DNA of 64,000 nt, taken from assembly GCF_012396585.1 (NCBI RefSeq), contig NZ_JAAXPR010000001.1:186001-250000 (forward strand). The letters are read 5' to 3'. Below, in pieces: positions 15,513 through 32,108 of this stretch. The notes under the pieces were generated by a model. That model was not told where the DNA came from and searched no databases. It was given only the letters and a program-made list of their open reading frames with translations. The translations under genes and the position numbers were made by a program. Positions within the stretch are counted from its first letter, which is position 1. Every line of letters begins with the position of its first letter. The DNA comes from Streptococcus ovuberis. GTDB lineage: Bacteria > Bacillota > Bacilli > Lactobacillales > Streptococcaceae.

Positions 15513-16446
15513 CGCCAAAAAGTTGGAAGACAGCAGACGCAGAAACCGACGGTAAGGATTGGACGTTACTTGGAAGAATTTCAAGCCATCAAAGATTATT
15601 CAGATAAGCATAGTGGAGCCCCTATTAGCCAGTTATGCCAATTGCTTGGAGTGTCTCGATCAGGCTATTACAAGTGGCTAACCACAATGGAACAGACTCA
15701 GAGCGAACAAATCAATCACTATCGGAGATCCTCAAGGATTTTCATCTGAAACACAAAGGTATTTTAGGGTACCGTCGAATGACACGAGCTATTAATCGTA
15801 AACTTGGAACTACTTATAACAAGAAGCGAATTCTTGGTATCTCATCAATTATCCGTCATTCTTAAGACAATTGCACGAAGACCAATTTTGTGAATATTGA
15901 AGAGAACAGTCTCAATAAAGATTTCACAGCTCATGGTCCCTAATCAAATGGTGTACAGATGCGACTTTCTTGCAATATGGATGAGGCTGTAAGGCTTATT
16001 TAAGTGTTATTAAAGACCTTTATGATAGCTCCATCGTGGCTTATCACATCAGTAAGCACAATGATAAGCCCTTAGTTATGGAAAATCTAAGAAAGACTAT
16101 AGAAGCCAATCTAGGAGCGATGCTACTGCTTCATAGTGATTGAGGCTCCCAATACACTTCACGAGACTAACGAATGGTAACAACATAGTATGAATTAACT
16201 CGCTCTATATCACGAGTTGGCAAATGCATTGACAATGCCCCTATCGAGAGCTTCTTTGATCACTTTAAAACAGAATGTTATGATTTGAAGACCTACAAAA
16301 TATTTGAGGAGTTAGTCGCTGATAGTGATGAATATAGCTATTTTTACAACAATGAACTATTTCAAGAGAAGCATAACAGCCTTGCCCCTCTTGAAATGAG
16401 AAACAAGGCCGTTGCCTAATCTTTTATTAGTTCATTGTCCACTTGA
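15185..16446 (+). mobile_element. Decayed IS3-family insertion sequence
   Basis: Remains of both reading frames are recognisable. OrfA: residues such as GKGLNSKPNLTPEEALQLK and KQLEERNRYLEMEVGLL (about 15290-15414). OrfB, the DDE transposase: PISQLCQLLGVSRSGYYKWL, GILGYRRMTRAINRK, KWCTDATF, LLLHSD, then RVGKCIDNAPIESFFDHFKTECYDL and a tail ending RNKAVA. Frameshifts near 15670 and 15840 and several in-frame stops (for instance after HSD) show it is dead. A 10-bp direct repeat GTCCACTTGA brackets it (15185-15194 and 16437-16446); true ends are not certain. Confidence 0.8.
15415..15516. repeat. Small non-coding element inserted in the IS
   Basis: About 100 bases splitting orfA. Its left part resembles 10299-10360; its right part (AACTCGCTTTGCTTCGAACGG) resembles the TTACTCGCTTTCGCATTTCT block of the 54-bp tandem repeat. 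This ties the three loci into one small repeat family. Confidence 0.5.
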
Positions 16447-16531: not shown

Positions 16532-18427
16532 TTAAACATTATTTTTGAATCTTTTTTTACGACCGGCAAAAGATAGTCCAACCAAACAGAAGCCAAACAA
16601 AGAGTAAGCAAAATTATTAACTGAATTTGTCTTAGGTAGAGATTTTGTTTGAGCTACTGTAGAGGCAGTTTCAGGTAATGAATGCTTATTCTCTTCAGAT
16701 ACCTTTATTACGATAGTTGAAGATTCTGCTTTCTTATAACTTTCTTTATCACCTGGAGCTTCAATTACAAGTGCTTTTGAACCAGTTTGGCTTAGTTCTT
16801 TTGGTTTTTCTGAAGGTAAATTCTCAGGATTTTTCTCCCAAATTGCGTAAAGTGTTGCATCTGATTTAGGGAAGAACTCATCTAGTTTTGTGCCTTCTGA
16901 ATTGGTTGTCCAACCTTTTAAAGTAAAGCCATCTCTAGCAAAAGTAGGGAACTCAATTTTTTCACCTAGCTTGTATTCTCGTTCTTCAATTACTTTTTCA
17001 TCCTGGTCCTTGTAGGAAACTTTAACTGTTCGTCTAGAAAACTTAGCAAAGTCATCCTTGGTATATAAGAAACCTGCACGCAAAGCATTTACATAGGTAT
17101 ACAGTCTTTCACTCTCTTGTTTAGAACCTGAAGGCTGAGTGCCGCCACCAGCAGAATCAATAGTAATATCGTATCCAACTGCATCCGCATAAGCTTTTAA
17201 AACTGTTGTGGCTCGTGGCAAATGTAAAATTGTACCAACAGCTAGGACTTTTTTAGCTCCATGTTCTTTGAATGCTTTAACCATTCCGACTGCGTTACCC
17301 GGAGTATCGCGAGCTATATCATCCAAAATCAATCGATCCGCAGAGATTCCATTTTCGATAAGCCACTTAGCCATTACATCTGCTTCTGCATATTCATATC
17401 GTACTGGACCTCCACTAAGAACAATTGGAATATTTGGATACCTTTCAGCCATTTCTTTTGTCTTTTCGAGACGAGTAATTAATGCTGGTGAAGGTGTACC
17501 ATCAGGATTTGGGGATTGACCAAAAACTGCAATGACGTCTGGAACCATATCGGTAAGCTGGTCCGAGCCATAGTTTACTTTTTTAGCATTATTGGCATCA
17601 GAAAATTTTAATACATTATGAACAGCTTCTTCTGCTTCTGGTGAGATATATTTTAAAGCAGCTAAGCGGTTTTTTACTTGCTCCTTTTCACCTGTCACTT
17701 TAGCAGCAAGAATAGACAAAGATAAGGCATGAATATCGCTTGGATCTCTTCTTAAGATTCTATCTAGCTGTGAAAAAGCCTCCTTATAATTTTTATTTAC
17801 TAAATAAACCTCTGCCTGTAAACGATAAGTGTTCAAATAGTCAGGATTTTCCTGAGCTTTCTGATCTAAAGATTTATACAGATCTTGCCATTCCCAACGT
17901 CTAAATCTAGTAACATCTTCACTTAGAACAGAATCATTGGCATAAGAATCACCATAGTTGGAAATCAATTTTTCCAAAGGTTCACCTCTACCATCGGCTT
18001 TTGCACCTGGAGCAGGCAATTCTGAGTAGAAATCAAAACCGATTTCACTAGTATAGTCAACTCGTTCATTCGTAAGATTTTCATAAAAATCTTTTGAAAT
18101 TGAAGCTTCCTCGGTATCTGATGCAGCTGAATAAGCTCTAGTTTGCACTCCAGGTGCTGAATCATCAGTACTGATTAAAGTAGTTGTTTCGTTTTCAGCT
18201 ACTCCTGTCTCTGTACTAATTTCTGAAGTAGTAGTATCAATACTTTGTGAGCTATCAATAGTACTAGTAACAGAAACGCTAGTAGACAAGTTTTCGCTAT
18301 TATTATCTAAAGCCTGTACATTTGGTCCTGATGACAAAAGCCAGAATAAAGCTAGTGTAGAAATTGAAGTTAATTTCAATGCTCTAAACTTTCTTGCTCT
18401 GTAAGAATTATTATTTGTATTGAACAT
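16532..18427 (-). CDS. Cell-wall protein with TPR-like, DUF218/YdcF and InlB-type repeat regions
   Basis: 631 residues. An atypical YSIRK-like signal peptide (1-39, SYRARKFRALKLTS) is followed by a Ser/Thr-rich linker. Residues about 165-275 are helical and TPR-like. A DUF218 (YdcF/SanA/ElyC) domain starts near D297: DVIAVFGQSPNPDG, VLSGGPVRYEY and DDIARDTPGNA. Residues about 467-530 match a Listeria-Bacteroides/InlB B repeat (GFTLKGWTTNSEGTKLDEFF). The tail has LPKTN at 597-601, a hydrophobic segment and KKRFKNN; a second LPETA lies at 584-588. DUF218 proteins act at the envelope in other bacteria. It is the last gene of the PTS operon, 19 bases after the regulator. GGAGG precedes the ATG. 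Confidence 0.8.
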   Translation of the reverse strand: MFNTNNNSYRARKFRALKLTSISTLALFWLLSSGPNVQALDNNSENLSTSVSVTSTIDSSQSIDTTTSEISTETGVAENETTTLISTDDSAPGVQTRAYSAASDTEEASISKDFYENLTNERVDYTSEIGFDFYSELPAPGAKADGRGEPLEKLISNYGDSYANDSVLSEDVTRFRRWEWQDLYKSLDQKAQENPDYLNTYRLQAEVYLVNKNYKEAFSQLDRILRRDPSDIHALSLSILAAKVTGEKEQVKNRLAALKYISPEAEEAVHNVLKFSDANNAKKVNYGSDQLTDMVPDVIAVFGQSPNPDGTPSPALITRLEKTKEMAERYPNIPIVLSGGPVRYEYAEADVMAKWLIENGISADRLILDDIARDTPGNAVGMVKAFKEHGAKKVLAVGTILHLPRATTVLKAYADAVGYDITIDSAGGGTQPSGSKQESERLYTYVNALRAGFLYTKDDFAKFSRRTVKVSYKDQDEKVIEEREYKLGEKIEFPTFARDGFTLKGWTTNSEGTKLDEFFPKSDATLYAIWEKNPENLPSEKPKELSQTGSKALVIEAPGDKESYKKAESSTIVIKVSEENKHSLPETASTVAQTKSLPKTNSVNNFAYSLFGFCLVGLSFAGRKKRFKNNV

Positions 18428-18445
18428 GAGTGTCCTCCAAAATTT

Positions 18446-20311
18446 TTATATCAATAAATCACGATAAGAAACATGACTATTAGAAAGCAAATCACTTCTT
18501 AAGACCATACTATTAAGGATATTTAACAGCATTTTTAAACGCTGAGGATTATTTTCAACGTTTATATCTACATCAATAATATATTCTTGAGATAGATTCC
18601 GATAGACAATAATATTATTCTCCTCAGATGAAAGCTCCAGGTTAAATCTAATTTTTGTACCATTTTTTTCAATTTCAATGATTTCAAAATTATCCGTAGG
18701 TTCAATTTCAATAAAATTATTCCTAAACTCTATTGCTGGGAATTTTGTATCATACGAATACGAATCAAAAAATATCGTACTAAAGGAATCATCATAATCA
18801 AATTCTGATAATCCATCTTTTACATAGTAAATTGGACTTTGTGAAATATTTAAATTCTTACCAAAGTTGGAACAAAGGTAATAGTCATAGTTTTTATCGT
18901 CACTGTAATTTAGTTCATATAAAGTTTTTGTTTCGATCCTTTCTATATAATTTGAAAAATAGTGTTGTAGATTGAACTTTAGTTGCTGAGTTGATAATCT
19001 ACCATCAATAGCAATAATGGCAAGCCTTAATTTTTTTCGATCAAGAACAATCCGATTAAAGACACCTAAAAATGTCAGATATAGTATATCTAGTTCCCTT
19101 TTAGAAAACTCATAAGCATACTTCTCATAAAATTTTGAAGATAATTTCTCTACAAAATACCTTAGAATTGGTTGCTCATCGTTCCTGCTAAAATCCTTAT
19201 AGCGTAAATCAATACTGTCAGATACTTTCAGCAGTATCTTTAAGCTAATCGGAAGCATTATTTTCAAAGTATCTTTAAAACAAGTGTAATCTTCAAAGAA
19301 ATCAAATCGGAAGTAATCTGATAACTCTCTAAGGATAAAGTTTCTTGTTTCTTGAGCAAGTATAATAAGCTGACTATAATTTTCACTAGAACAATCTGAG
19401 AATCTATATAAATCCGTACTTATAACAGCAATGTAAGTTAAAAACTGAATTATTTCTTTTTCGAAAACAAATCCATACAGACGGCTATTTAATTTCTCAA
19501 TAATTTCAACAACCAATTTATGTTCATCCGTAGATTCATAACAAAAATTTATTGGTTGTAGTTCTAGATCCTGATTTTTCTGATAATAATTATTTCGGAA
19601 ATAAATTAAATAGATGATAAATCTTTCAATATTAAGGTCCGAAAAAACTATCCGAGATTTAGTAATTGAGCTTAAAATTGTTTTTCGGATAAGTTCCTTG
19701 TCAAAATCGGAACAAGCAAACAAATTTTCATAATCAGGTACCCCTGACTTATAAGTAGTGTATCTATCAAAATACCTATATATTCTGATTGTCAGCATCA
19801 CTTTCTTAAATTGTGGGCCAACAATCTCGATACCATACTTCGGACGCATCTGGAGTGTTAGTCCATATTTCGAAACGAGATTTTTCACCTCCTGTAATTC
19901 TCTTGTCAAAGGACTAGTCGTGAGTAGTTCACTCTGAAAGTCTTCAATTTTGAGTGGTATTGTAGATGATACCAGCCTTCTAAGAATATGTAAGACAAAT
20001 GTATCTTTCTCATTTTCTAACTTGACAGAGGGAAATATCTGAAATAGCTCTTTGATTTGCTCTATATAACTAGGATTGTTGATATGCAATTTGTAACCAA
20101 ATGACCGTTTGGATTCAATACTTCCTAAATCCTGGATACATGATTTTAATTCATTGATATCTGATTTTATTGTTCGTGATGTTACATTTAACTTTTCAGC
20201 TATATACGAACTCGTTACAAAATCTTCCGAACGAAAAAGGAGGATAAATAAAGCCTTAAGTCTAGGTTTGCTATCTAAGATTTTTAGTCTCTCCGATACT
20301 TCCTTACCCAC
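18446..20311 (-). CDS. PRD-containing BglG/Mga-type transcriptional regulator
   Basis: 621 residues. N-terminal winged helix-turn-helix (about 15-75, with LNVTSRTIKSDINELK), a second HTH-like region, two PRD-like helical regions (about 170-400), an EIIB-like segment (about 405-500, DYYLCSNFGKNL) and a divergent C-terminal part. Family role: DNA-binding activator whose PRDs are phosphorylated by HPr and PTS enzymes. It follows the phosphatase gene (20 bases apart) in the PTS operon, so it likely senses this PTS. High AT content sets it apart from the housekeeping genes. No RNA-binding CAT domain, so it should act on DNA, not as an antiterminator. Confidence 0.8.
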   Translation of the reverse strand: MGKEVSERLKILDSKPRLKALFILLFRSEDFVTSSYIAEKLNVTSRTIKSDINELKSCIQDLGSIESKRSFGYKLHINNPSYIEQIKELFQIFPSVKLENEKDTFVLHILRRLVSSTIPLKIEDFQSELLTTSPLTRELQEVKNLVSKYGLTLQMRPKYGIEIVGPQFKKVMLTIRIYRYFDRYTTYKSGVPDYENLFACSDFDKELIRKTILSSITKSRIVFSDLNIERFIIYLIYFRNNYYQKNQDLELQPINFCYESTDEHKLVVEIIEKLNSRLYGFVFEKEIIQFLTYIAVISTDLYRFSDCSSENYSQLIILAQETRNFILRELSDYFRFDFFEDYTCFKDTLKIMLPISLKILLKVSDSIDLRYKDFSRNDEQPILRYFVEKLSSKFYEKYAYEFSKRELDILYLTFLGVFNRIVLDRKKLRLAIIAIDGRLSTQQLKFNLQHYFSNYIERIETKTLYELNYSDDKNYDYYLCSNFGKNLNISQSPIYYVKDGLSEFDYDDSFSTIFFDSYSYDTKFPAIEFRNNFIEIEPTDNFEIIEIEKNGTKIRFNLELSSEENNIIVYRNLSQEYIIDVDINVENNPQRLKMLLNILNSMVLRSDLLSNSHVSYRDLLI

Positions 20312-20330
20312 GATATTATCCTCCTATATT

Positions 20331-21374
20331 TTACTCTAAATACATTTCTCTCAGTCTATCGATAATTTCCTTATCAATATCTAACTCTGAGATAGCATAT
20401 TGCTCAATTGAACCATAACCATCAAAAATAGAATTGATAGAGGCTTCAATAAAATCTGACTTTGTATCAATAAAAGAATAGAGATGGTCTAACACTTTTT
20501 CATCGGTTGTTAGTTTTCTATACCCTTCCATTTTTACTCTATTTCGTTCCTCACGATTTTTTCCAGTAATGAGATAATCTTGAATTAAATCCTCCTTACT
20601 GACACCGAGAATTCCTAAGAGTAACATAGCTCCGTAACCAGTACGATCTTTGCCTCCTCGACAATGCTGAACACTAGCTGGTGAATTTGGATTTGCAAGA
20701 ACCGTTAGCATTTTAGAAAATGCTGTTTTAGATTCTTTACCTTCTGCAAATGTTCTATATTGTGAATAGACAACTTCTGAGTGATCAACTAATTGACCTG
20801 ATTTTTGTTGCTCAATTATTTTATTGATAAGGTTAATGTCCTCATCCTCTTTAGAAGACTGAAATTGAGCTGCGAGCTCTGCAACATGAGCAGATGGATC
20901 TAGTTGAAAGCTCGTGACACCTGTATGAATTATAGGATTGGGGTACTTTGACACCTCATTATCACTCCTATAATCAACAATTGTCTTTAAGTTCAACTGT
21001 CTTAGATATTCTAAACCATCTTCTGTTGCATTGTGAATATGATCAGAACGATATAACACCCCCCATTTTACTCTCTTACCGTTATTAGCTTTATAACCAC
21101 CCATATCTCTAAAATTATTCATTCCAGACACTGGTAAAGTTCTTTCAGCAACTTTGTACTCGCCTGACTTGGATTTAATCAGGAAATACGGTCTTCTATC
21201 TAACTCTAGCAGAATTTCAAATTTGTTATCATCAGTTTTCTTTAGAAACTTAATTGGCTCACCGTCTGAGCTACTTAACAGAAATACTTCGACTTCTCCA
21301 TTTTCAGAATCACTTTCTCTAATAAAAGTGTAGATATTCTTCTGAAACTGTTTCACTTCAAACTCTTTAGCCAT
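20331..21374 (-). CDS. Tyrosine/dual-specificity-type phosphatase
   Basis: 347 residues. The catalytic CX5R loop is HCRGGKDRTG with C238 and R244. The preceding GMNFRDMGGY and WGVLYRSDHIH motifs are typical of the Y_phosphatase3 family (LipA/MptpB-like), whose members act on phosphotyrosine or phosphoinositides. An N-terminal region of about 95 residues of unknown type precedes it. No signal peptide, so cytoplasmic. It starts three bases after the IID stop, inside the PTS operon, which is unusual and suggests it acts on a transported phosphorylated compound or on a regulator (inference). Confidence 0.85.
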   Translation of the reverse strand: MAKEFEVKQFQKNIYTFIRESDSENGEVEVFLLSSSDGEPIKFLKKTDDNKFEILLELDRRPYFLIKSKSGEYKVAERTLPVSGMNNFRDMGGYKANNGKRVKWGVLYRSDHIHNATEDGLEYLRQLNLKTIVDYRSDNEVSKYPNPIIHTGVTSFQLDPSAHVAELAAQFQSSKEDEDINLINKIIEQQKSGQLVDHSEVVYSQYRTFAEGKESKTAFSKMLTVLANPNSPASVQHCRGGKDRTGYGAMLLLGILGVSKEDLIQDYLITGKNREERNRVKMEGYRKLTTDEKVLDHLYSFIDTKSDFIEASINSIFDGYGSIEQYAISELDIDKEIIDRLREMYLE

Positions 21375-21377
21375 AAT

Positions 21378-22184
21378 CTAACCTAACACTTTCAAATAGG
21401 TCAAGAGGATAGAAATAACCATAATTCCAAAGATCAATAGTGGAGCATGTTTGCCATTTGTTTTCTTCAAAATTTTATAGATAACAAAAGTTAACAGAAT
21501 GCTAAACAGCCCAGGCATAACTTTGTCAAACATTTCTTGGAAGAGGATAACGTTGTCACCAGCCTTAATTTCAGAGACAACATTTACTTTAACGACAGAA
21601 GCAATAAGTCCTCCGATAACCATAAGACCGACAACATTCGCAATATTTGATAGACGTTGCAGGATATTGCCACCTACTCCTTCAATCAATTCTACACCTT
21701 TAGCGTGGCCTAAGTGGATACCATAATATTTAGACGCAATGTTTACAAAGTTATAGAGTAAGAACATTACAATCGGACCGAGGACACTACCATTTAATGC
21801 TAGGGCTGCACCAATACTTCCGCAAATTGGTAACCAAGTGAATTTCAATACACTATCACCAATACCTGCGAGTGGTCCCATTAGGCCAGTTTTGATACCA
21901 GTTACAGTATCCTTCTGATCTTCAGTTGTCGTTTCTTCCACGGCAGCTGAAATTCCAAGAATCAAGGCATCTGAGTTAACATGACTGTTAAAGAATTCAA
22001 GATGGCGCTTCATAGCTTTCACACGCAACTCTTTTGGCTTATCCTTGTACAAACGTTCAAGAACAGGTGTAAAACTTGATAAGAAACCAATAGCTTGCAT
22101 TGATTGGAAGTTATTAGTTACGTTTAGTAATTGCATTCTCCAGAATACTTTGTTTAAATCTTGCTTTGTAATTTTGTTACTCAT
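21378..22184 (-). CDS. PTS mannose/fructose/sorbose-family component IID
   Basis: 268 residues. N-terminal ITKQDLNKVFWRMQLLNVTNNFQSM and the central GLMGPLAGIGDS motif are diagnostic of EIID. Membrane segments lie in the C-terminal half. With IIC it forms the sugar channel. It overlaps the IIC gene by 4 bases. Substrate cannot be told from sequence; the mannose family also carries amino sugars, sorbose and fructoselysine-type compounds. Confidence 0.95.
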   Translation of the reverse strand: MSNKITKQDLNKVFWRMQLLNVTNNFQSMQAIGFLSSFTPVLERLYKDKPKELRVKAMKRHLEFFNSHVNSDALILGISAAVEETTTEDQKDTVTGIKTGLMGPLAGIGDSVLKFTWLPICGSIGAALALNGSVLGPIVMFLLYNFVNIASKYYGIHLGHAKGVELIEGVGGNILQRLSNIANVVGLMVIGGLIASVVKVNVVSEIKAGDNVILFQEMFDKVMPGLFSILLTFVIYKILKKTNGKHAPLLIFGIMVISILLTYLKVLG

Positions 22185-22954
22185 AGATCATAGTCCTCCT
22201 CATCATTATCAATTTGTCCGAACACTTCTTTAACTTGAGCTTTTTGAGTTGCCAAGTCGTAAATCAAAGCAATCGGTAAAGCGATTAGAGTGATTGGTAA
22301 AACTGAGAGCTGCAGATAAACTGCTAGAGCAAAACCAGCGATTAGGAATGTCCAAAGCTCAGCTTTTTTCAACATCATCAGCATCAAGAGACCAATACCC
22401 ACAGCAGGAATAATCTTACCTGCTACTGAAAGACCTGACATAATTTCTTTTGGAAGTGCAGCAACAACTTGGTCTACTACACCAGCACCGAGATATACAG
22501 CAATGAAAGTTGGAACTGCACGAATAAGGAAGGCAATTACCATTGGAATATAGTTAATACGATAAACTTTACTAAAGTCACCAGTCTCTGCGATTTTTTC
22601 AGCGATTGGATTCAAATAAACAATACTTGAACGATATAGTACGAGTAATTGTTGAGCTAATAGAGAAGCTGGAACTGCAACTGCTACAGCAGTCGCAACA
22701 CCATCTGATGCAAGACCTAATGCCGTCCCGATTGCAGTACCTGAAATGATGTCAGGTGCTGAATAAGCTCCTACGTTACCAATCCCCATCCACATTACTT
22801 CTAGCGAAGCACCAATGAGTAATGATGTATGCACATCCCCCATAATCAAACCAATGACAGGAGCAATTAGCAAAGGACGTCTCAACATCTGAGTACCAAT
22901 ATCATCAATTGCACATAGACCAGCCCACGCTGCAATTAGTAATGCCTGAATCAT
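22181..22954 (-). CDS. PTS mannose/fructose/sorbose-family component IIC
   Basis: 257 residues, about eight hydrophobic segments. The N-terminal region AIDDIGTQMLRRPLLIAPVIG LI and the LEVMWMGIGNVGAYSAPD stretch match EIIC of the mannose class. Works with IID in the membrane. Overlaps IIB by 4 bases and IID by 4 bases, showing translational coupling. Confidence 0.95.
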   Translation of the reverse strand: MIQALLIAAWAGLCAIDDIGTQMLRRPLLIAPVIGLIMGDVHTSLLIGASLEVMWMGIGNVGAYSAPDIISGTAIGTALGLASDGVATAVAVAVPASLLAQQLLVLYRSSIVYLNPIAEKIAETGDFSKVYRINYIPMVIAFLIRAVPTFIAVYLGAGVVDQVVAALPKEIMSGLSVAGKIIPAVGIGLLMLMMLKKAELWTFLIAGFALAVYLQLSVLPITLIALPIALIYDLATQKAQVKEVFGQIDNDEEDYDL

Positions 22955-23424
22955 AAAATGACCTCCTCTAATTTAATTTTTTCGTCGTTTGGAACCATCT
23001 GAATTGTTACTTCCACTGAGTTTTCCAATAATTTCTTGAATGCTTCCTTCTCGGAAGGTGTAACAGCAACTGACTTAGTTAGCTTCTCCCTACCTTCTTG
23101 GAACCTCATTCCACCCACATTAAGAGAAGGAATTGGAACACCAGCTTCGTAAGCTCTTAATGCATCTTCACTAGTCGTAAATAGTAGCATTGTTCGTCTA
23201 GTAATTTTGTTTGTTTTGATAATTTCACCAAATTTTTCAACAGGAAATGCTTTTACAGAAATTCCTTGTGGAGCTGCCATAGTCAAAATACTTTTTTGAG
23301 TTTTGTCGCCAGCAACTTTATCATTCAAAACAATAATTTGCTCAATCTTATGCATATTAACCCAGGTCGTAACTACTTGACCGTGAATTAAGCGATCATC
23401 TATCCTACTAAAGACTATAGTCAT
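22951..23424 (-). CDS. PTS mannose/fructose/sorbose-family component IIB
   Basis: 157 residues from the ATG at 23424. A longer form from an in-frame TTG is less likely because GAAGGAG precedes the ATG. The phosphorylation site is H14 in RIDDRLIHGQV. It takes phosphate from IIA and passes it to the sugar. Its start overlaps the IIA end by 17 bases. Confidence 0.95.
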   Translation of the reverse strand: MTIVFSRIDDRLIHGQVVTTWVNMHKIEQIIVLNDKVAGDKTQKSILTMAAPQGISVKAFPVEKFGEIIKTNKITRRTMLLFTTSEDALRAYEAGVPIPSLNVGGMRFQEGREKLTKSVAVTPSEKEAFKKLLENSVEVTIQMVPNDEKIKLEEVIL

Positions 23425-23842
23425 CTTCTTCTCCTTCTTCAATTAAATCTTGTTTAGTCCTGACACTAAATCCTTGGTCATAAGCTGTCTTTAATACAGC
23501 AGCTAATGATTCAATTTGCTGTCCACGATTCATCAGAACTTCTAAAAGCATAGGTAAATTTAACCCTGAAACCACAACCACCTCTTCTTGAGATAGTAGC
23601 TGTGATGCTAAGTTTATTGGTGTTCCTCCGATAATATCCGTAAGAACTACCAGTCCTTTAGAAGTATCCAACGAGGAAACCTTCTGAAGCATTTCTTCTT
23701 TTAAAACCTCGACATCATCAACTGTATATATCCCTAATGTCTGAAAGTTGTTCTGCTTACCGACAATCAACTCTGCACTTTCAATTGCTGCCTTCGCAAA
23801 ATTACCGTGCGACATTAGAAGTAGTGCAATACTGTCTGCCAT
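23408..23842 (-). CDS. PTS mannose-family component IIA
   Basis: 144 residues. H12 in LLMSHGNFAKA is the phosphorylation site; the DIIGGTP motif also fits EIIA-Man. It receives phosphate from HPr. First gene of the operon IIA-IIB-IIC-IID-phosphatase-regulator-surface protein. AGGAGG precedes the start. Confidence 0.95.
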   Translation of the reverse strand: MADSIALLLMSHGNFAKAAIESAELIVGKQNNFQTLGIYTVDDVEVLKEEMLQKVSSLDTSKGLVVLTDIIGGTPINLASQLLSQEEVVVVSGLNLPMLLEVLMNRGQQIESLAAVLKTAYDQGFSVRTKQDLIEEGEEDDYSL

Positions 23843-23893: not shown

Positions 23894-23922
23894 ATTATAA
23901 AGGGAACGGAATACGGTTTCAA
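23894..23922 (-). promoter_or_regulatory. PTS operon promoter
   Basis: Minus strand TTGAAA (23917-23922), 17-bp spacer, TATAAT (23894-23899). No sigma-54 elements, unlike LevR-driven mannose-class operons. Confidence 0.75.
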
Positions 23923-23932
23923 TGAAAGGTTT

Positions 23933-23950
23933 TTCACTTTATAAAGTGAA
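23933..23950. promoter_or_regulatory. Perfect 18-bp palindrome upstream of the PTS promoter
   Basis: TTCACTTTATAAAGTGAA, a perfect dyad, 11 bp upstream of the -35. Candidate activator or repressor site for the LacI-hybrid or the PRD regulator. Its half-site recurs three times before the HAD/LacI-hybrid genes. Confidence 0.65.
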
Positions 23951-23956
23951 GGCTTT

Positions 23957-23991
23957 GAAAAAAAGAAGCAACTAGCCAACAGACTAACTGC
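23957..23991 (-). terminator. Terminator of the LacI-hybrid gene
   Basis: Minus-strand hairpin AGCAGTTAG/CTAGTTGCT with two wobble pairs, followed by TCTTTTTTT. Lies just past the stop at 23997. Confidence 0.7.
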
Positions 23992-23996
23992 TACTC

Positions 23997-26030
23997 TTAT
24001 AATTTAGAAACTCTCTCCATCAACTCTTGTCCTAAAATCGTTTCAAAGTCTAAATCAGTAACAAAATCATGCCAATGACTTCTACTTCCCTGACTGAAAG
24101 TCTCATTAAAATTCTCAAACCATGGATATATTTGTCCTAGATTACTATCTTCAATAACTGTTTCAACAGGAAGCACACCTCCAAGATAGGCTAATAAGCG
24201 TGAAACCTCAGCAGAATACAGCCAATTCAAAAAGTTTAAACACTGAGAAACTTGGACAGAGTATAGACTAACACCAATAGAACCACCTCCGGTCATCGCT
24301 TGCTTGCCTGGAACACTAGCAATATCAAATTGGTAGGCAACATCATGTTTTTCTGAACCCGAGAACAAGGGTGAGATATAGTTTGAAAAGACAATTTCCA
24401 TTGCGGTATGACCTAGACGTAAATGTCTCACATGGTCTTCCCACCATAAGTCCAGTTTACCGTTGGTATATGTCACACTATTTTTATAGTCTTTAAATGT
24501 CTCATTGATAACAGACAAATCCATGTTATTGCCCAATAACTTTTCTCTATATCTTGGCATAAAGTCACAAGTTGCTACAATAGGGGTCTTGACTGCTAGT
24601 GTATGACCAAAATCTGTCTCCGAATCTTTGTTAAAAGACTTACTAAAGAAAGAAGAAACTAGATCAAACTCTTCAAATGTTTTTGGCACATCCAATTGCT
24701 TTTTGTACTTCTCGTAAAACTGTCGCTGGAGTAGCGTATTATCAAATAGGTCTTTCCGATAAACCAAGACTTGACTGGAAATATCAAATGGGAAAGTGTA
24801 CTGTCTATCTGACTGATGGCTATACTCTGAGGCAATATTAGGCATCAACTTGCTGTTAATCACCTGAGTAAGCTCCTGATTTGTCACCTCCTGAAAAACC
24901 GTTTCAGCAAAATTGGGTAACCAAGCCATATCGACACGAATCAAATCAACCCGATTCAAAAAATCTTGATTTGATAAGTTGACAAGCAATTCTTGATATG
25001 TAAACTCTTCAATCTGGATCGTCATGCCGGTTAGAGTTTTGTATTTTTCAACAAGTACCTTAATGGCGTTTGACATTGGTGATTCAACGATTGCAAGGGT
25101 TAAAGTTATAGCGACTGGATTCGTCATTTCCTCATTCTGGTTCTCAACACCTTTGGGTTCAATAAGAGAATAATTATCGGTGTCCAAAGCCGCTATCAAC
25201 CGCTTGGCAACTAATTTATAATCTAAGTTCAAATACGAAATATTCTGCTGCCCGATGATATCACGGCAACCAAGAACCAAAATATGAGGCCGTTCTGTTT
25301 TTCCAAACCAGTCTAATAAGTCGTTTAATTCCTTAACAACCTTTCTATCAGAGACAACTAAAGTGTCTTTAGACGTTAGATGAGACAATTTGGAATACAT
25401 CATCACAATATTGGTATTGTCAGAATCAGTCAATAGCCGTACTCTGAAATCAGATTTGAGTAACGTTCTATGCAGATTAGCAAATAGGGCAAAACCTGCA
25501 TATGGACTTATAAGTGTAACAATTCCATCGGAACGTGGTTCTAAAAAATTTACCACAAGTTTTTGGATATGATCACTATTAAAGTTGATGCCAGCATCGT
25601 TATCAGTATCAATCAAGATAAGCTTAGTTCCTTGCTGGTCTAAGTCAGTGGCTCGTGTTGGTTCAAGCCCAAGACTAACAACAGCAAGTGGTAAAAGAGA
25701 ACTAATCTTAGCAATTCGTTCATCTAAATCAACCTGATTTTTGAAATAAAACAATTCAATATCATAGTCATCACTATCAAAGGTCACTAGAAAATCAATA
25801 AGGTCTGAGTAATGGAAACGACCAAAATAGGGAATAAAAACGCAGACTTTTTTTGATAAACCTTTTCTAAGGACTTGAGCTTGAGAATTTAATTGGTAAC
25901 CAAGTCGCTTTGCTGCTTCTTCTACCAACTTAATTTTTGAGGCTCTAACATTTCCTCGTTTATTTAAGACATTTGATGCTGTACCATGTGAAACTCCAGC
26001 CTCACGTGCAATATCTTTAATAGTAACCAT
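23997..26030 (-). CDS. LacI-type regulator fused to an ABC solute-binding-protein domain
   Basis: 677 residues, about twice a normal LacI protein. Residues 1-55 are a LacI helix-turn-helix (TIKDIAREAGVSHGTASNVLN and the hinge helix). About 60-300 is a weak LacI-type periplasmic-binding fold (KKVCVFIPYFGRFHYSDLID). From about 306 to the end the sequence looks like an extracellular solute-binding protein of the sugar class (ITLTLAIVESPMS, YTFPFDISSQVLVYRKDLFD, MTGGGSIGVSLYS) but there is no signal peptide, so it is a cytoplasmic sensor. It starts 12 bases after the HAD gene and is followed by a terminator and the PTS operon. Likely regulates one or both neighbouring operons (inference). Confidence 0.8.
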   Translation of the reverse strand: MVTIKDIAREAGVSHGTASNVLNKRGNVRASKIKLVEEAAKRLGYQLNSQAQVLRKGLSKKVCVFIPYFGRFHYSDLIDFLVTFDSDDYDIELFYFKNQVDLDERIAKISSLLPLAVVSLGLEPTRATDLDQQGTKLILIDTDNDAGINFNSDHIQKLVVNFLEPRSDGIVTLISPYAGFALFANLHRTLLKSDFRVRLLTDSDNTNIVMMYSKLSHLTSKDTLVVSDRKVVKELNDLLDWFGKTERPHILVLGCRDIIGQQNISYLNLDYKLVAKRLIAALDTDNYSLIEPKGVENQNEEMTNPVAITLTLAIVESPMSNAIKVLVEKYKTLTGMTIQIEEFTYQELLVNLSNQDFLNRVDLIRVDMAWLPNFAETVFQEVTNQELTQVINSKLMPNIASEYSHQSDRQYTFPFDISSQVLVYRKDLFDNTLLQRQFYEKYKKQLDVPKTFEEFDLVSSFFSKSFNKDSETDFGHTLAVKTPIVATCDFMPRYREKLLGNNMDLSVINETFKDYKNSVTYTNGKLDLWWEDHVRHLRLGHTAMEIVFSNYISPLFSGSEKHDVAYQFDIASVPGKQAMTGGGSIGVSLYSVQVSQCLNFLNWLYSAEVSRLLAYLGGVLPVETVIEDSNLGQIYPWFENFNETFSQGSRSHWHDFVTDLDFETILGQELMERVSKL

Positions 26031-26041
26031 AAATTAGCCTC

Positions 26042-26641
26042 TTACTTTAAAAAACCATCCAAATACTCTAAAAATAATGTTATATCTGTTACCTGATAGG
26101 TATTTATCCCCTGATTTCGAGCCGCCTCAAGATTTTTCTCTAGATCATCAAAGAAATAAGTTTGGCTTGGCTCAAGCTCAAAAGTAGTTAATAAAGTCTG
26201 ATAAATCTTAGGATCTGGCTTGGATTGCTTAACCTTATAAGATAAAATTTTACCATCCAAAATTGATGAGAGTTCTGGCGCTCGTTCTTCCATACATGGA
26301 TAAAATAATTGAGACGTATTTGAAAGAATAAATAACTTATGTCCATGTTGTTTTAGGGAAACCATTTTTTTAACAACATCATCGTAGAAACTGACATAAC
26401 GATACCAATACCACATGATTTGATGAACTTCTTCTTCAAATTCATTTAATAAGGCTTCATTAACTTTATTTTCAACTTCTTCAATTGTATACAGCCCGGC
26501 ATCCATCTCTTCCCATAAACCTGAGCCAAAAATAGCCGCGTCTACGCGACGGCGTGATTCATCTACGGGTAACAAAGCTTTTAAAAAAACGTTCTTATCC
26601 CACTCAATAATCACATTGCCAAAATCAAATACTAAATTCAT
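26042..26641 (-). CDS. HAD-superfamily hydrolase (subfamily IA)
   Basis: 199 residues. Motif I DFGNVII (nucleophile D6, with N for the second usual D position shifted), motif II LSNTS, motif III lysine in KQSKPDPKIY and motif IV FFDDLEKN. Probably a small-molecule phosphatase such as a sugar-phosphate phosphatase. Cotranscribed with the LacI-hybrid gene 12 bases downstream. Upstream lies an extended -10 (minus-strand TGGTAGAAT). Confidence 0.85.
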   Translation of the reverse strand: MNLVFDFGNVIIEWDKNVFLKALLPVDESRRRVDAAIFGSGLWEEMDAGLYTIEEVENKVNEALLNEFEEEVHQIMWYWYRYVSFYDDVVKKMVSLKQHGHKLFILSNTSQLFYPCMEERAPELSSILDGKILSYKVKQSKPDPKIYQTLLTTFELEPSQTYFFDDLEKNLEAARNQGINTYQVTDITLFLEYLDGFLK

Positions 26642-26657
26642 TTCAATACCCCATATT

Positions 26658-26726
26658 TCACTTTACAGCAGTCGTATGTCACTTTCTATTCTACCAAATT
26701 TCAAAACATTTTCGTAGTCACTTTAT
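26658..26726. promoter_or_regulatory. Three TCACTTT repeats before the HAD/LacI-hybrid unit
   Basis: TCACTTTA at 26658, TCACTTT at 26679 and TCACTTTAT at 26718, all in one orientation, around the predicted promoter. The same heptamer forms each half of the palindrome at 23933-23950. Suggests a shared regulator and autoregulation (inference). Confidence 0.45.
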
Positions 26727-26727
26727 C

Positions 26728-26760
26728 AAAATAAGGTGCTGTCAAAACAACACCCTATTT
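26728..26760 (-). terminator. Terminator of the uptake operon, overlapping the mgtC-like stop
   Basis: Arms AAATAAGGTGCTG and CAACACCCTATTT pair over 13 positions with two wobbles around a 6-7 base loop; TTTTG follows on the minus strand. It separates this operon from the HAD gene. Confidence 0.7.
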
Positions 26761-27459
26761 CAATTCCTCCAAATAAATCACACCAGGTATCTTCGATAAA
26801 TCCTCCATCAATTTTAAATGATTAAAGGACTCATTCAATTTTAAAGACAAATAACAAGACACTTGACTAGTTTCTGCTTGATAAATTTTCTGCTTTTTAT
26901 CACTATAACTAAGCCCATTTTGCATATCTAAAATTTTTATATCGGAGGTGTTTAGAAAAATCAGAAGACGATTAAATCCCTCCAATGAATTAAAAATAAT
27001 ATGAAAATCAGCAACTTTTGAACGACTATTCAAGTAATCTTTTAAAGGTGAAACCAAGGTCATGATGCCAATTAAAGTAGCTGTTGAAATCAGAGCACCT
27101 GAATAAAAACCAATACCAGTAGCCAATCCCACAACAGCTGACGCCCATAGGCCCGCTGCTGTCGTTAAGCCACGAATTTTTTGGTTGTCGGTGACTAAGA
27201 TCGTTCCAGCACCTAAAAATCCTAAACCACTAATGACCTGTGCTCCCATTCGTGTCGGATCTCCTATGCCATATTTCAAGACAATATACTGGTTGGTCAT
27301 CATTACCATCGCAGATGCCAAACAAACCAGAATGTATGTTCTAATACCTGCCGCTTGGTTTTTAACACCTCGTTCAAAACCGATAATACCACCTAAAACG
27401 ACAGACAAGAGAATTCTCAGTAAAATAATTGGCAGGGTTAATTCTCCTAGAGTCTCCAT
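26755..27459 (-). CDS. MgtC/SapB-family membrane protein
   Basis: 234 residues. Four or five N-terminal membrane helices with the family motifs GGIIGFERG, AAGIRTY, GAQVISGLGFLGAGTI and GLTTAAGLWASA, then a cytoplasmic C-terminal domain of about 75 residues. MgtC proteins inhibit F-type ATP synthase or aid survival in low magnesium or in macrophages in other bacteria. Its start overlaps the end of the permease gene by one base. Its presence in a phosphate-compound uptake operon is unusual. Confidence 0.85.
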   Translation of the reverse strand: METLGELTLPIILLRILLSVVLGGIIGFERGVKNQAAGIRTYILVCLASAMVMMTNQYIVLKYGIGDPTRMGAQVISGLGFLGAGTILVTDNQKIRGLTTAAGLWASAVVGLATGIGFYSGALISTATLIGIMTLVSPLKDYLNSRSKVADFHIIFNSLEGFNRLLIFLNTSDIKILDMQNGLSYSDKKQKIYQAETSQVSCYLSLKLNESFNHLKLMEDLSKIPGVIYLEELK

Positions 27460-29156
27460 TACTGACGTGTTCCCTTTTGCGTTCTAAAACGATGACTAAG
27501 ATAGAGAGCCAAGGTTGACATCACCATTAAGATAACCGAATAGACAAACATCATTGCAATTGCATTAACAGTGGCCGTCTCATCAGTTGCCGATTTAATG
27601 ACAACACCAAGCGGCTTAAACAAAGGGTGATAGAGGAAAACCGATAAATCATAATCTGAGAGTAAGGAGTTAAAATTTAACACCACAACAGAGAGTACAA
27701 CTGGCATGATAAATGGAATAATGACTTTTATCATGGTGTAAAAGCTTGATGCTCCCATACTACGAGCTGCTTCTTCCATATCACTGTCAATGCTAAAAAA
27801 TACTGCTCGAATCATCCGATAAGAAAACGGAAGTTTTTGGATAATGTAAGCAATAAGCATCATACCTAAGGTCCCAATCAGAACCTGATTAAAGACAATT
27901 AAACGAGGCTCGTTAAAAGTAAACATCAGCCCCAGTGCAATCAATGTACTTGGTAAAATCCATGGAATTAAAGCGCCATACTCAAAAAATTTATCGAACT
28001 TATAAGTGTTTTTATGAACAATTCTTGAAATAATGATGGCAATAACAGTAACAATAAAGGCTGCTGAAGCTGCATAGATCAAACTTACTAGATAAGGTTT
28101 GAAGAACTCCGCATTAGAAAACAACTCCTGATAGTTTGCCAACGTAAAACTTGATAGGCTTAGATTACCAGTCTTAATTGTTAATGCATCCGTGAAGGAA
28201 TAAAGGACAACCAGGGTAATTGGCAACATATAGATCACAAATAGCACGTAGGCAACAATGTGAGCAATGGCATTCCAAACTGGAGAGGTGATTGCTTGTT
28301 TTTTTAGGCCTGCTTTTGTTTTTGATACAGAAACATAGTTGCCACCTTTTTCTACCTTGTTAAGTAACGTTAACAACAAAATTGTTGCTAAGCCCAACAT
28401 GATGGCTAAGAAAGCTGCTAGGTCACGTGAACCATTTGATTTTGCAAAACTGATAATCAACGGGTTAATCGTTTGAAACTCTTTTCCACCTACAATAAGT
28501 GGGGCAGAAACGGCTGACAAGCCCGTCAAAAAGGTCAAAATCGTTAAGGCAAACAAGGTTGGCTTAAAGGTAGGAAGCACCACCTTGAAAAATACGGTCA
28601 TTGGTTTCGCACCCATGTTTCGAGAAGCTTCAATCGTATGGTAGTCAACACTACGGACAGCATTCGTCAAAAACATGATATGGTTTGAGGTACAAGCGAA
28701 AGTCATGATAAATAAAACCGCTCCGAAACCATGAAACCAATCTGGATTCAAACTTGGAAAGACTGATAGCAATAACTTAGTGATAAGCCCATTGCTACCA
28801 TATACAAATTTATAGCCAGTCGCAAGAACAATACCACCGTAAATCAAAGAAGACATGTAGCCAAGTTTGAGAACTTTGGCTCCCTTGATATCCCAGTACT
28901 CAGTCAAAAGAACTACCAGAGTCCCAACAATGTTAACAGTTATCACCATAGAAATAGCTAGTTTGAAACTGTTCGCAATACTGTTTAGAGCCCTTTCCGA
29001 ACTCATAATCTTATCCAAAGCCCGTAAGGAGAACTCACCATCTTTGAAAAAGACATTTGTCAGAAGTCCGATATTGGGATAAATGATGAAGGCTACCAGT
29101 AGCCACAGAACACCGATCCGTAGTAACCAGTCTTTCCATTTGATATCTTTGAACAT
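27459..29156 (-). CDS. ABC transporter permease, two fused membrane domains
   Basis: 565 residues, about 12 membrane segments, with two binding-protein-dependent transport domains. EAA-type loops are visible in both halves ([20 protein letters not shown] and [21 protein letters not shown]). This fused arrangement is typical of the Fe3+/thiamine/2-aminoethylphosphonate/hexose-phosphate (AfuB-like) group. GGAGG lies 8 bases before the ATG; the ATPase stop is one base upstream. Confidence 0.9.
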
Positions 29157-29157
29157 G

Positions 29158-30171
29158 CTACTGACCTCCGTATTGCATAATGTCTTTCGGATTGATAAAT
29201 AGCGTCACGACATCATCGATAACATGGCTGGAATGCCCGTCATTCTTTTCAATGATATTAACTTGCTGTCCATTCTCCAATATAACAGTATATTTGATGA
29301 AAACACCATTGAATTCCAGATCAACAATTTTCCCTTGAATAGATAAATCACTTTCAGCTTGTCTTTCCAGTCGTACACGTTCTAAGCGAACATAGCCACT
29401 GTTTGGTTCAAAAATTGGCAACCCATTAGCAAGTAGAGCCAAGGTTTGCTCTGACAGGTGGTTAATATCACCGATGAAATCACAGACAAATTCTGTCTTA
29501 GACTGATTGTAAATTTCATACGGTGTTCCCACTTGTTCAATGAAACCATTATTGAAGACCGCAATACGATCCGATAAGGTCAAGGCTTCTTCTTGATCGT
29601 GAGTGACATAAAGGGTTGTGATACCTAGTTCTTTTTGCAGTCGCTTCAACTCTAAGCGAAGATCTACCCGTAATTTGGCATCCAAATTCGAAAGCGGTTC
29701 GTCCAAGCAAAGAATTTTAGGCTCTAAGACCAAAGCCCTAGCCAAAGCAACCCGTTGCTGCTGTCCACCAGAAAGTTCCGAAATATTACGCTTCAACTGC
29801 TCATCCGAAATTTTGATTTTCTTAGCAACCTCATGAACCTTGGCTTTTATGATTTCAGGCGAAACCTTCTTAACCTTCAAACCAAAAGCAATATTATCAT
29901 ACACTGTCATTGTAGGGAATAACGCGTAGCTTTGGAAAACAATACCAATCTCACGTTTTTCTGGATCCAAATTCGTGATGTCTTTATCACCAACACAAAT
30001 AGTACCCTTAGAGGGGTTAATAAACCCCACTAAGGTACGCAAGGTTGTTGATTTACCACAACCACTTGGTCCGAGAAATGTAAAGAACTCCCCTTCCTTG
30101 ATTTCTAAATTCAAATTGTCAATCGCAATAAAATCTGCATATTTGATTTGTATATCGTTAAAGGTAATCAT
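29158..30171 (-). CDS. ABC transporter ATP-binding protein (PotA/FbpC/AfuC type)
   Basis: 337 residues from the ATG at 30171 (AGGAG 8 bases upstream); a GTG two codons earlier is less likely. Walker [10 protein letters not shown] (34-42), signature LSGGQQQR, Walker [12 protein letters not shown], then a C-terminal regulatory TOBE-like domain (about 240-337). Energises the permease encoded next to it. Confidence 0.9.
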
Positions 30172-30199
30172 ATACACCTCTCCTCACTTTTAAATGTTA

Positions 30200-31261
30200 C
30201 TATTCTACAAATTCCAGTTCAGCTTTTTCCACCCATGAGCTGATATTCTCACCGATAAACTCCCAATCCAATTTCTGAGATTTAACGCTACTTGCAAATT
30301 CTTTAATTTCAGCCTTAGCACCTTCAAGAGCTGTCTTGTTAGCAGGGATTGAACCAAAATCGTCACTCCATGCTTTTTGAACCTCTGCACTACCAAACCA
30401 GTTGACAAATTCTTTGACAAGGGCTTCTTTCTTGCTAGTTGACAAAATTCCAACTTGCTCTGTGACGTAAGGAACCCCCACCTTAGGACTCATGACTTGG
30501 AATTTATAGCCACGTTCAGCTTGGTTTTGAAGAACACCTGAACCCCACATCATGCTGTAGTTCAATGGGTTGCTATCGTCGATAAGAGCAGAGATATAAT
30601 CTTCACCTTGTGCATAAGTATGTGCATTTTGAATGTACTTCTTAGCTACTTCCCAACCTTCATCGGAAATACCCAAATCACCTTTTTCATCAGCGTAGCG
30701 GCTAACGATGCTTGCAAAGATGTTTTTAGAAGTACCTGTGTTCAAGCCAGAAATACCATAAGTCCCTTTATAAGAATCTTTGGTCAAATCTGTCCAGTCA
30801 TTTGGCATATCAGCTTTTGCGTTACCGATCAGTACCAATGGTTGAACAACAATTGGGTGGTAATAACCATCAGCATCACCGAGTGTAGCATCTACTTCGT
30901 TAGCCCACTCTGGACTGTATTTAACGAGTAATTTTTCATCTTTGATACGGTTGAACTCCAAGTTGTTCAAACCAAATACCATATCAGCAATCGCATTGTT
31001 TTTCTCTGCAATCAATCGGTCAGCCAATTCACCACCAGAGATATCAACGTATGAAATTTTAAAGCCTTTTTCAGCTGCTTTTTCTTTGAGCCATTCACCA
31101 CGGCCATCAGTTGTTGAGTTAGAATAGATGACAATCTCTTGTGAGTAGTCAATTTCAGCTGGTGCACTCTCTTTAGCTGGCTCAGCTGATTTAGATGTGC
31201 TACAAGCAGTCAACAAGAGTGCTGCGCTAGCGAACATGCAAAGTTTTTTAAAGTGTTTCAT
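30200..31261 (-). CDS. Solute-binding lipoprotein of the ABC importer
   Basis: 353 residues. Lipoprotein signal with lipobox LLTAC, so C20 is the anchored residue. The mature part matches the Fe3+/AEP/hexose-phosphate binding-protein class (IVIYSNSTTDGRGEWLKE, DMVFGLNNLEF, EQVGILSTSKK). In that class AfuA of Actinobacillus binds sugar phosphates, not iron. Its start overlaps the phosphodiesterase gene by 14 bases; AGGAG lies 8 bases upstream. Ligand not proven. Confidence 0.85.
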   Translation of the reverse strand: MKHFKKLCMFASAALLLTACSTSKSAEPAKESAPAEIDYSQEIVIYSNSTTDGRGEWLKEKAAEKGFKISYVDISGGELADRLIAEKNNAIADMVFGLNNLEFNRIKDEKLLVKYSPEWANEVDATLGDADGYYHPIVVQPLVLIGNAKADMPNDWTDLTKDSYKGTYGISGLNTGTSKNIFASIVSRYADEKGDLGISDEGWEVAKKYIQNAHTYAQGEDYISALIDDSNPLNYSMMWGSGVLQNQAERGYKFQVMSPKVGVPYVTEQVGILSTSKKEALVKEFVNWFGSAEVQKAWSDDFGSIPANKTALEGAKAEIKEFASSVKSQKLDWEFIGENISSWVEKAELEFVE

Positions 31262-32108
31262 AAGAATTTCTCCTATTTAATATTTTTTTGTAGTTATTTT
31301 CAATTAAGCAAGAATACAATAAGTATGGCCAATCTGTTTGAATAATATCAAAACCCAGTTCAACTAATTTGATCCAAGAATAGCCATTATCAAACAGAGC
31401 TACTTCATCATCAATTCTTGCAGCCAGTACAATCGTGTCATTTAGACGAAGAGCATTTACCCAGGTAAGAATGCCTTTATTACGAAGTCGTTGCATAGTG
31501 GCAGGACTAATCAATTCTGAATCTAAATCTTCAAAAATCAATTCTACTGCAACTAAGTTAATACCTCCAAAGTTCAGAACTAACTCAAGTTCTTCAACCG
31601 TTTTGACAATCGGCATAAACATAACATCTAATTCAGAATCTCGCAATTGTTCCAGCAACTCTCTTTTTGCCGGTGCCTTGAGCAAGACTTGGCTTAATGA
31701 CTTATAGGTTTTAAGTTTATCAAGGAAGGTATCCCAATAGAACCAACTCCTATCAATGTTTATTAGGCTCTTCCCTTCAAGATTGGCAAGAACTTCCTCA
31801 ATCGTTTCTAATCTTTGATCTACTGGCTCAGCAAGCGAGTTGAAACAAGGTAAACCTTTAATTTGTTCCGCCGGCAAAAGACGAAGATCAATATCCATAT
31901 CAAAAACCAACTTTTCTTGGCCATCATGAAATGCAAAAAATTCACCATCAACCGTTCGGATGACATCAACTTCAACCATATCACCTTTGTGACGAATGGC
32001 GTTCAGGTAAGCCTTTGTAGTATTTTGAATGATGTTACCACCATTTGTACCACGATGAACCGCAATTAGCACCCCCCTTTCTTCCTGATATTTCTGTAAC
32101 AGATTCAT
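31248..32108 (-). CDS. Glycerophosphodiester phosphodiesterase family protein
   Basis: 286 residues. GDPD motifs: HRG at 18-20 with N in TNGGN, EVDV (E46, D48) and FHD with H61. No signal peptide, so cytoplasmic. It would split imported phosphodiesters into alcohol and glycerol-phosphate or a related product. First gene of the operon GDPD-binding protein-ATPase-permease-MgtC. Active-site residues are present, but the C-terminal half is divergent. Confidence 0.85.
   Translation of the reverse strand: MNLLQKYQEERGVLIAVHRGTNGGNIIQNTTKAYLNAIRHKGDMVEVDVIRTVDGEFFAFHDGQEKLVFDMDIDLRLLPAEQIKGLPCFNSLAEPVDQRLETIEEVLANLEGKSLINIDRSWFYWDTFLDKLKTYKSLSQVLLKAPAKRELLEQLRDSELDVMFMPIVKTVEELELVLNFGGINLVAVELIFEDLDSELISPATMQRLRNKGILTWVNALRLNDTIVLAARIDDEVALFDNGYSWIKLVELGFDIIQTDWPYLLYSCLIENNYKKILNRRNSYETL

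Follow-up and report, generated by a model that had tools for sequence, protein, structure and literature searches.

Organization of the operon

The window (the whole 64,000-nucleotide stretch of Streptococcus ovuberis DNA analysed here) carries seven intact and complete ORFs, all on the minus strand, across 16532-23842 (Table 1). They code for the IIA, IIB, IIC and IID components of a mannose-family PTS, a phosphatase (PTP), a transcription regulator and a protein that joins a TPR-like region to a DUF218 domain. As in the preliminary description of this DNA, these are same-strand genes with overlaps or tiny gaps, none exceeding 35 nt: IIA and IIB overlap by 35 nt (17 nt with the IIB start at the better-placed ATG at 23424, which is the likely start), IIB/IIC and IIC/IID overlap by 4 nt each, and gaps of 3, 19 and 18 nt separate IID from PTP, PTP from the regulator, and the regulator from the DUF218 gene. 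The same description proposed one operon joining PTS import, phosphatase, regulator and surface DUF218 protein, which is supported by the conserved gene order elsewhere, and we infer that the seven genes share a single transcript.

Table 1. Features of the operon and of its upstream region (window coordinates)
Feature	Position	Strand	Evidence or remark
PTS mannose-family IIA (EIIA-man)	23408..23842	-	Pfam PF03610, E 1.8e-23
PTS mannose-family IIB	22951..23442	-	Pfam PF03830 (PTSIIB_sorb), E 1.4e-50
PTS mannose/sorbose-family IIC (EII-Sor)	22181..22954	-	Pfam PF03609, E 1e-64
PTS mannose-family IID (EIID-AGA)	21378..22184	-	Pfam PF03613, E 1.4e-83
PTP, Y_phosphatase3-family phosphatase	20331..21374	-	Pfam PF13350, E 7.5e-58
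Mga/AtxA/MafR-type transcription regulator	18446..20311	-	HTH_11, E 4.2e-10
TPR-DUF218 protein, predicted secreted and sortase-anchored	16532..18427	-	Pfam DUF218, E 9e-16; PF09479
Terminator-like hairpin of the upstream operon	23967..23992	-	Separates two transcription units
Candidate operator palindrome TTTCACTTTATAAAGTGAAG	23932..23951	.	Phylogenetic footprint; 1 mismatch to TTTCACT-N6-AGTGAAA
Sigma-70-like promoter TTGAAA-17-TATAAT, 11/12	23894..23922	-	

IIA, IIB, IIC, IID, PTP and the DUF218 protein all exceed their Pfam gathering cut-offs (for DUF218, 58.4 bits against 27.6), and the phosphorylatable histidines can be read from the sequences of IIA (MSHG) and IIB (DRLIHGQV). Matches to the IIA, IIB, IIC and IID families within one operon are also the mark of the man, lev, aga and sor PTS operons. 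Unlike these, the present cassette has no sugar-specific catabolic enzyme, PTP being the only candidate for a catabolic enzyme in the operon, and it adds a phosphatase, a Mga-type regulator and a surface DUF218 protein. Naming the substrate through NCBIfam models was not successful, as every equivalog scored below its cut-off; the best match of IIC, AgaW, also stayed below the AgaW cut-off. Downstream of the operon, an HTH_21 match (15635-15865) is probably an insertion-sequence remnant, and the adjacent ORFs look broken.

Control region and regulator

Before the first gene there are a terminator-like hairpin, a palindrome, a promoter and an AGGAGG ribosome site. The palindrome lies 9 bp ahead of the -35 box and is the sole copy, at up to one mismatch, in the window genome, a Streptococcus genome of 2.47 Mb. 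TTTCACT-N6-AGTGAAA, with zero to two mismatches, was found upstream of IIA in all Gram-positive cassettes examined, and in 14 of the 14 that have a TTGAAA -35 box the end of the operator copy is exactly 9 bp from that box. Hungatella and locus L042, with poorer -35 boxes, have the operator about 8 bp away, and Oceanobacillus jeddahense has it as two tandem copies. The exact palindrome is present as a single copy in six (2-4 Mb) of nine whole genomes, each time at the cassette, and a reversed-pattern control gave zero exact matches in the nine; when one mismatch is allowed, larger genomes show background matches comparable to the control. The Pasteurellaceae have a different palindrome, TTTGCACGATATATCGTGCAA, with one copy in each of six genomes. 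It stands upstream of the cassette in five of the six, and in G628 the site and the DUF218 match are on separate contigs. The palindrome is a candidate operator for the regulator, and its position just upstream of the -35 box suggests activation. CcpA cre sites showed no excess in the window over shuffled sequences; several relatives carry a cre-like TTGAAARCG that shares bases with the -35 box, and the copy in the window is degenerate.

The Pfam profile of the regulator comprises HTH_11 and a weak Mga-type HTH, and its NCBIfam AcpB/EbpR/MafR match (E 5.8e-10) is below the cut-off. Foldseek searches with the AlphaFold model (pLDDT 80.8) found a MafR-like structure (3sqn, E 6e-10), AtxA (4r6i, E 1e-9) and Mga (5way), and the architecture in the model is that of two wHTH domains followed by a PRD-like helical region and an EIIB-like C-terminal region, in common with Mga, AtxA and MafR. 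The earlier assignment of a PRD regulator therefore stands as regards the predicted fold but not as regards the domain call, since Pfam detected no PRD domain at E<=0.1 in 11 regulator homologues. Comparison of 13 regulator homologues shows no conserved histidine within the PRD-like region (residues 192-418). Phosphorylation of PRDs by the PTS in the classical manner is therefore unsupported, and so is the PTS-sensing control proposed earlier. The lack of such a histidine distinguishes the cassette regulator from Mga, AtxA and MafR, as does its apparently local, single-operator role.

Conservation and mobility of the cassette

A scan of named genomes with PTP as the query gave 21 loci, and the cassette is conserved in at least eight genera of two phyla. 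Streptococcus, Enterococcus, Tetragenococcus, Listeria kieliensis, Oceanobacillus and Hungatella all show the order IIA-IIB-IIC-IID-PTP-regulator. In S. suis, S. danieliae, Rodentibacter and Mannheimia DSM 10531 the next gene after the regulator is DUF218, which is missing from the Enterococcus, Listeria, Oceanobacillus, Tetragenococcus and Hungatella cassettes; because most Gram-positive cassettes are without it, DUF218 counts as an accessory gene of certain lineages. The comparative search for the conserved set, which the preliminary description had proposed, thus found relatives of two phyla whose operons hold both phosphatase and DUF218, so the pair is not, as was considered there, absent from the operon in all relatives. 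In Pasteurellaceae a gene for a secreted histidine acid phosphatase (His_Phos_2) is inserted between PTP and the regulator, and in the Rodentibacter cassette a porin gene comes after DUF218. In Rodentibacter genomosp. 1 (L070, 9831-9985), His_Phos_2 is seemingly deleted after the signal peptide, and the porin is split. Transposases interrupt or sit inside Tetragenococcus-type cassettes (L038, 5113-6471; L040, 7182-8542), and the cassette therefore appears to be decaying there.

The closest match to the window is S. suis strain 15, with about 95-99% identity through most of the operon DNA and about 77-90% in the flank beyond IIA; identity changes inside DUF218 and inside IIA, as expected from horizontal exchange of the cassette. 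In a tree of IIC and IID, Pasteurellaceae are nested on short branches among Bacillota cassettes, which suggests transfer of the cassette between phyla, in a tree whose deep forks are poorly settled. A plasmid or phage origin was considered and rejected, as plasmids carry distant PTPs only and the phage evidence amounts to one DUF218 match at 26% identity.

The rarity of the close PTP among sampled Streptococcus genomes (2 of 147, the window genome and S. suis strain 15), together with the insertion-sequence remnant near the operon, might be taken to mean that functionally unrelated genes came to lie side by side by chance in one strain. This explanation is rejected as extremely improbable, because gene order is conserved: the same order recurs in many genera and in another phylum, and the cassette has an operator of its own.

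Phosphatase, surface protein and proposed pathway

PTP has the CX5R motif claimed earlier, HCRGGKDR, within the loop HCRGGKDRTG, as well as an N-terminal extension of about 77 aa and no evident signal peptide; it is predicted to be cytoplasmic. Its relatives in the PDB are 8dhi and MptpB (1ywf). With the Y_phosphatase3/MptpB-type phosphatases it has in common PF13350 over the whole catalytic domain and a CX5R loop with GKDR, whereas its P-loop is HC[R/Q/K/H]GGKDR instead of the HC[T/F/A/S]xGKDR classes, it is PTS-linked, and it has the extra N-terminal region. Apart from the residue after the cysteine, HCxGGKDR is invariant in 25 aligned PTP homologues.

P-loop type was compared with gene neighbours for 96 distinct PTPs, drawn from Lactobacillales, from Bacillota outside that order and from Pasteurellaceae. 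A PTS gene lies within 300 bp in 48 of 51 PTPs with HCxGGKDR and in 0 of 45 with other P-loops (Fisher p 3e-24, a value that overstates the evidence because related PTP sequences are not independent). PTS neighbours were called by BLAST against a small reference set, and some loci were short, such that a PTS gene farther off could escape detection; in a Pfam analysis of 54 neighbours of the non-GG loci, the 25 most frequent families included no PTS family. Of the three exceptions, two come from Tetragenococcus (one gene split into two ORFs, one separated from IID by a transposase), and at L035 an HCxGGKDR-class PTP has no PTS neighbour seen within 1.5 kb. The PTS partners belong to two superfamilies, the mannose type and the lactose/cellobiose type. 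At L049 (10511-14825) and similar Enterococcus-type loci, an HCQGGKDR PTP comes after a IIC of the lactose/cellobiose type, and genes for a BglG-type antiterminator and a GH1 enzyme lie downstream. PTP therefore need not be the sole catabolic step, since some PTS-linked PTP operons also encode GH1.

The suggestion that the phosphatase acts on the imported phospho-compound gains support from this near-perfect tie between HCxGGKDR PTPs and PTS genes from two superfamilies. A dedicated phosphatase for a PTS product has a precedent in MapP of E. faecalis, the phosphatase for PTS-imported maltose phosphate; the two are likened by description only, and the cassette enzyme is a CX5R phosphatase. PTP could instead be regulatory, dephosphorylating a protein (a PTS component, the Mga-type regulator or another) and thereby tuning the operon. 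Its gene often lies between the PTS and a PRD- or Mga-type regulator, and relatives such as MptpB bear the name phosphotyrosine phosphatase. But the PRD-like region of the regulator offers no conserved histidine, and the P-loop class tracks two PTS superfamilies whose regulators differ (BglG-type CAT_RBD-PRD or Mga-type), so that a shared small-molecule reaction fits better than one protein target, and we consider a regulatory role somewhat unlikely.

In lactic acid bacteria, PTS-linked phosphatase activity on sugar phosphates is part of known physiology. Such activity, and the fact that some PTPs accompany a PTS that already has its own GH1 enzyme, would agree with PTP serving detoxification or inducer expulsion, in which it would remove the phosphate from surplus PTS product for efflux, and not catabolism. 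The mannose-type cassette, however, has no other catabolic enzyme, and PTP therefore looks like the pathway enzyme there; we judge the expulsion role unlikely.

The DUF218 protein also carries TPR-like repeats and a Listeria-Bacteroides (InlB-type) repeat (PF09479). Its description as a cell-wall protein is upheld by an LPXTG-type anchor, written LPKTN, with TIGR01167 above cut-off, alongside which there are a signal peptide (read by eye), a hydrophobic stretch and a basic tail; the S. danieliae protein has a Gram_pos_anchor match. Export signals vary by lineage, with LPXTG in Streptococcus, a lipobox-type signal in Rodentibacter, and an autotransporter plus a signal-peptide protein in Mannheimia. 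In Mannheimia DSM 10531, one DUF218 protein has a C-terminal autotransporter beta-barrel (L071, 14599-16746), and a second, signal-peptide-bearing copy comes after it. Over the TPR-DUF218 core, the window protein and those of Pasteurellaceae share 54-60% identity. T375, H402 and E440 form a putative catalytic triad: T375 and H402 are invariant in the alignment, and E440 is conserved by inspection in all rows reaching it. By inspection rather than structural superposition, the three match SanA T125, H149 and E182 in their order and roughly in their spacing; alanine mutants of these SanA residues fail to complement (PMC12176290). As to a YdcF-like fold, the AlphaFold model (pLDDT 76.7) gave a Foldseek list dominated by TPR matches, a sequence search found no solved DUF218 relative of the window protein, and the literature searched established no enzymatic activity for any DUF218 domain.

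The cassette protein resembles SanA and ElyC of E. coli in having DUF218 outside the membrane and a T/H/E triad, and differs from them in its TPR-like N-terminal region, its LPXTG, lipoprotein or autotransporter anchoring and its membership in a PTS operon. Given that the characterised DUF218 proteins affect peptidoglycan and ECA, that most Gram-positive cassettes are without DUF218, and that distant homologues occur in unrelated or ABC/GDPD contexts, it might be an envelope factor like SanA and ElyC that travels with the PTS operon under common regulation but serves a separate pathway. Yet every close homologue examined, from two phyla, lay at the cassette (among sampled Lactobacillales and Pasteurellaceae only there, with a partial PTS check in the latter), an acid phosphatase and a porin accompany DUF218 in Pasteurellaceae, and its re-anchoring by way of LPXTG, lipid or autotransporter implies that a location outside the cytoplasm has been selected for. 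We therefore hold the envelope role to be doubtful. That the surface protein trims the substrate, as proposed earlier, receives indirect support from the putative triad, the lineage-specific anchoring and the Pasteurellaceae acid phosphatase and porin.

Distant TPR-DUF218 homologues in Lactobacillales adjoin, or are fused to, GDPD-DUF4996 and/or a PhnT2-like ABC system at four of six loci, the contexts being called by Pfam or by matching gene lengths. At L092 (8986-10833), GDPD-DUF4996 is fused to the TPR-DUF218 region within a PhnT2/PhnU2-like ABC operon. What these contexts have in common is phosphate-ester chemistry, a reason to propose a phosphoesterase role for DUF218 but no proof of one. 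A similar GDPD/ABC operon lies directly upstream of the cassette in the window (26042-32108), with GDPD-DUF4996, SBP, a PhnT2-like ATPase, a fused permease, MgtC, a HAD phosphatase and a LacI-SBP regulator, and is possibly a phosphodiester or organophosphate uptake system. In that regulator (23997-26030) a LacI-type HTH is fused to SBP_bac_8, an extracellular-solute-binding-protein domain; it seems to be a cytoplasmic regulator that borrows a transporter's binding protein as its sensor.

Overall, our tentative reading, to which we give slightly less than an even chance, is that the cassette is a horizontally mobile, self-regulated catabolic unit for a phosphorylated carbohydrate-type nutrient, with external release, PTS import and internal dephosphorylation. 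The nutrient is probably a phosphorylated sugar compound. The wall-anchored TPR-DUF218 protein would be an extracellular esterase or hydrolase whose target is a glycan, either phosphorylated or phosphodiester-linked, setting free a sugar or polyol, alongside which the secreted histidine acid phosphatase and the porin would work in Pasteurellaceae. The IIA-IIB-IIC-IID system would import and phosphorylate the freed compound, and PTP, as a PTS-dedicated phospho-sugar phosphatase, would strip the phosphate inside the cell, either to make the free compound available to core enzymes or to limit its phosphate pool. The Mga/AtxA-type regulator would bind the single palindrome upstream of the only strong promoter and activate the cassette. 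Gene content, conservation, export and anchoring signals, the operator with its uniqueness and the P-loop/PTS association are observed, while the activities of PTP and DUF218, activation and the substrate class are our interpretation of them. Energetically it is odd for a phosphatase to reverse the phosphorylation by the PTS, unless the product is a special compound. It is a fairly doubtful conjunction that HCxGGKDR PTPs are dedicated, widespread PTS-partner phospho-sugar phosphatases for mannose-type and cellobiose-type transporters alike, and that the exported TPR-DUF218 protein is an enzyme that frees the substrate of the PTS from a glycan of phosphorylated or phosphodiester type.

Each part of the cassette comes from a known family. 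The preliminary description knew no system of the same composition, and the open-access papers searched likewise contained none; neither the conserved combination, the single-site operator nor the P-loop/PTS rule was found in them. A PTS-linked tyrosine phosphatase, a DUF218/PTS operon and a histidine acid phosphatase within one are undescribed in this open-access literature, subscription papers being mostly outside its scope. HCxGGKDR is a testable marker that parts PTS-linked from other CX5R phosphatases, and the palindrome offers a local Mga/AtxA-type regulator a candidate operator, testable at a single site in each genome. The cassette places the DUF218 domain in a proposed metabolic pathway in which its substrate can be sought, which would also bear on SanA and ElyC. 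If the proposed reading is true, a DUF218 domain would for the first time have a biochemical role, and the cassette would be a PTS pathway in which phosphate is taken off outside the cell, put on at the membrane and taken off again inside.
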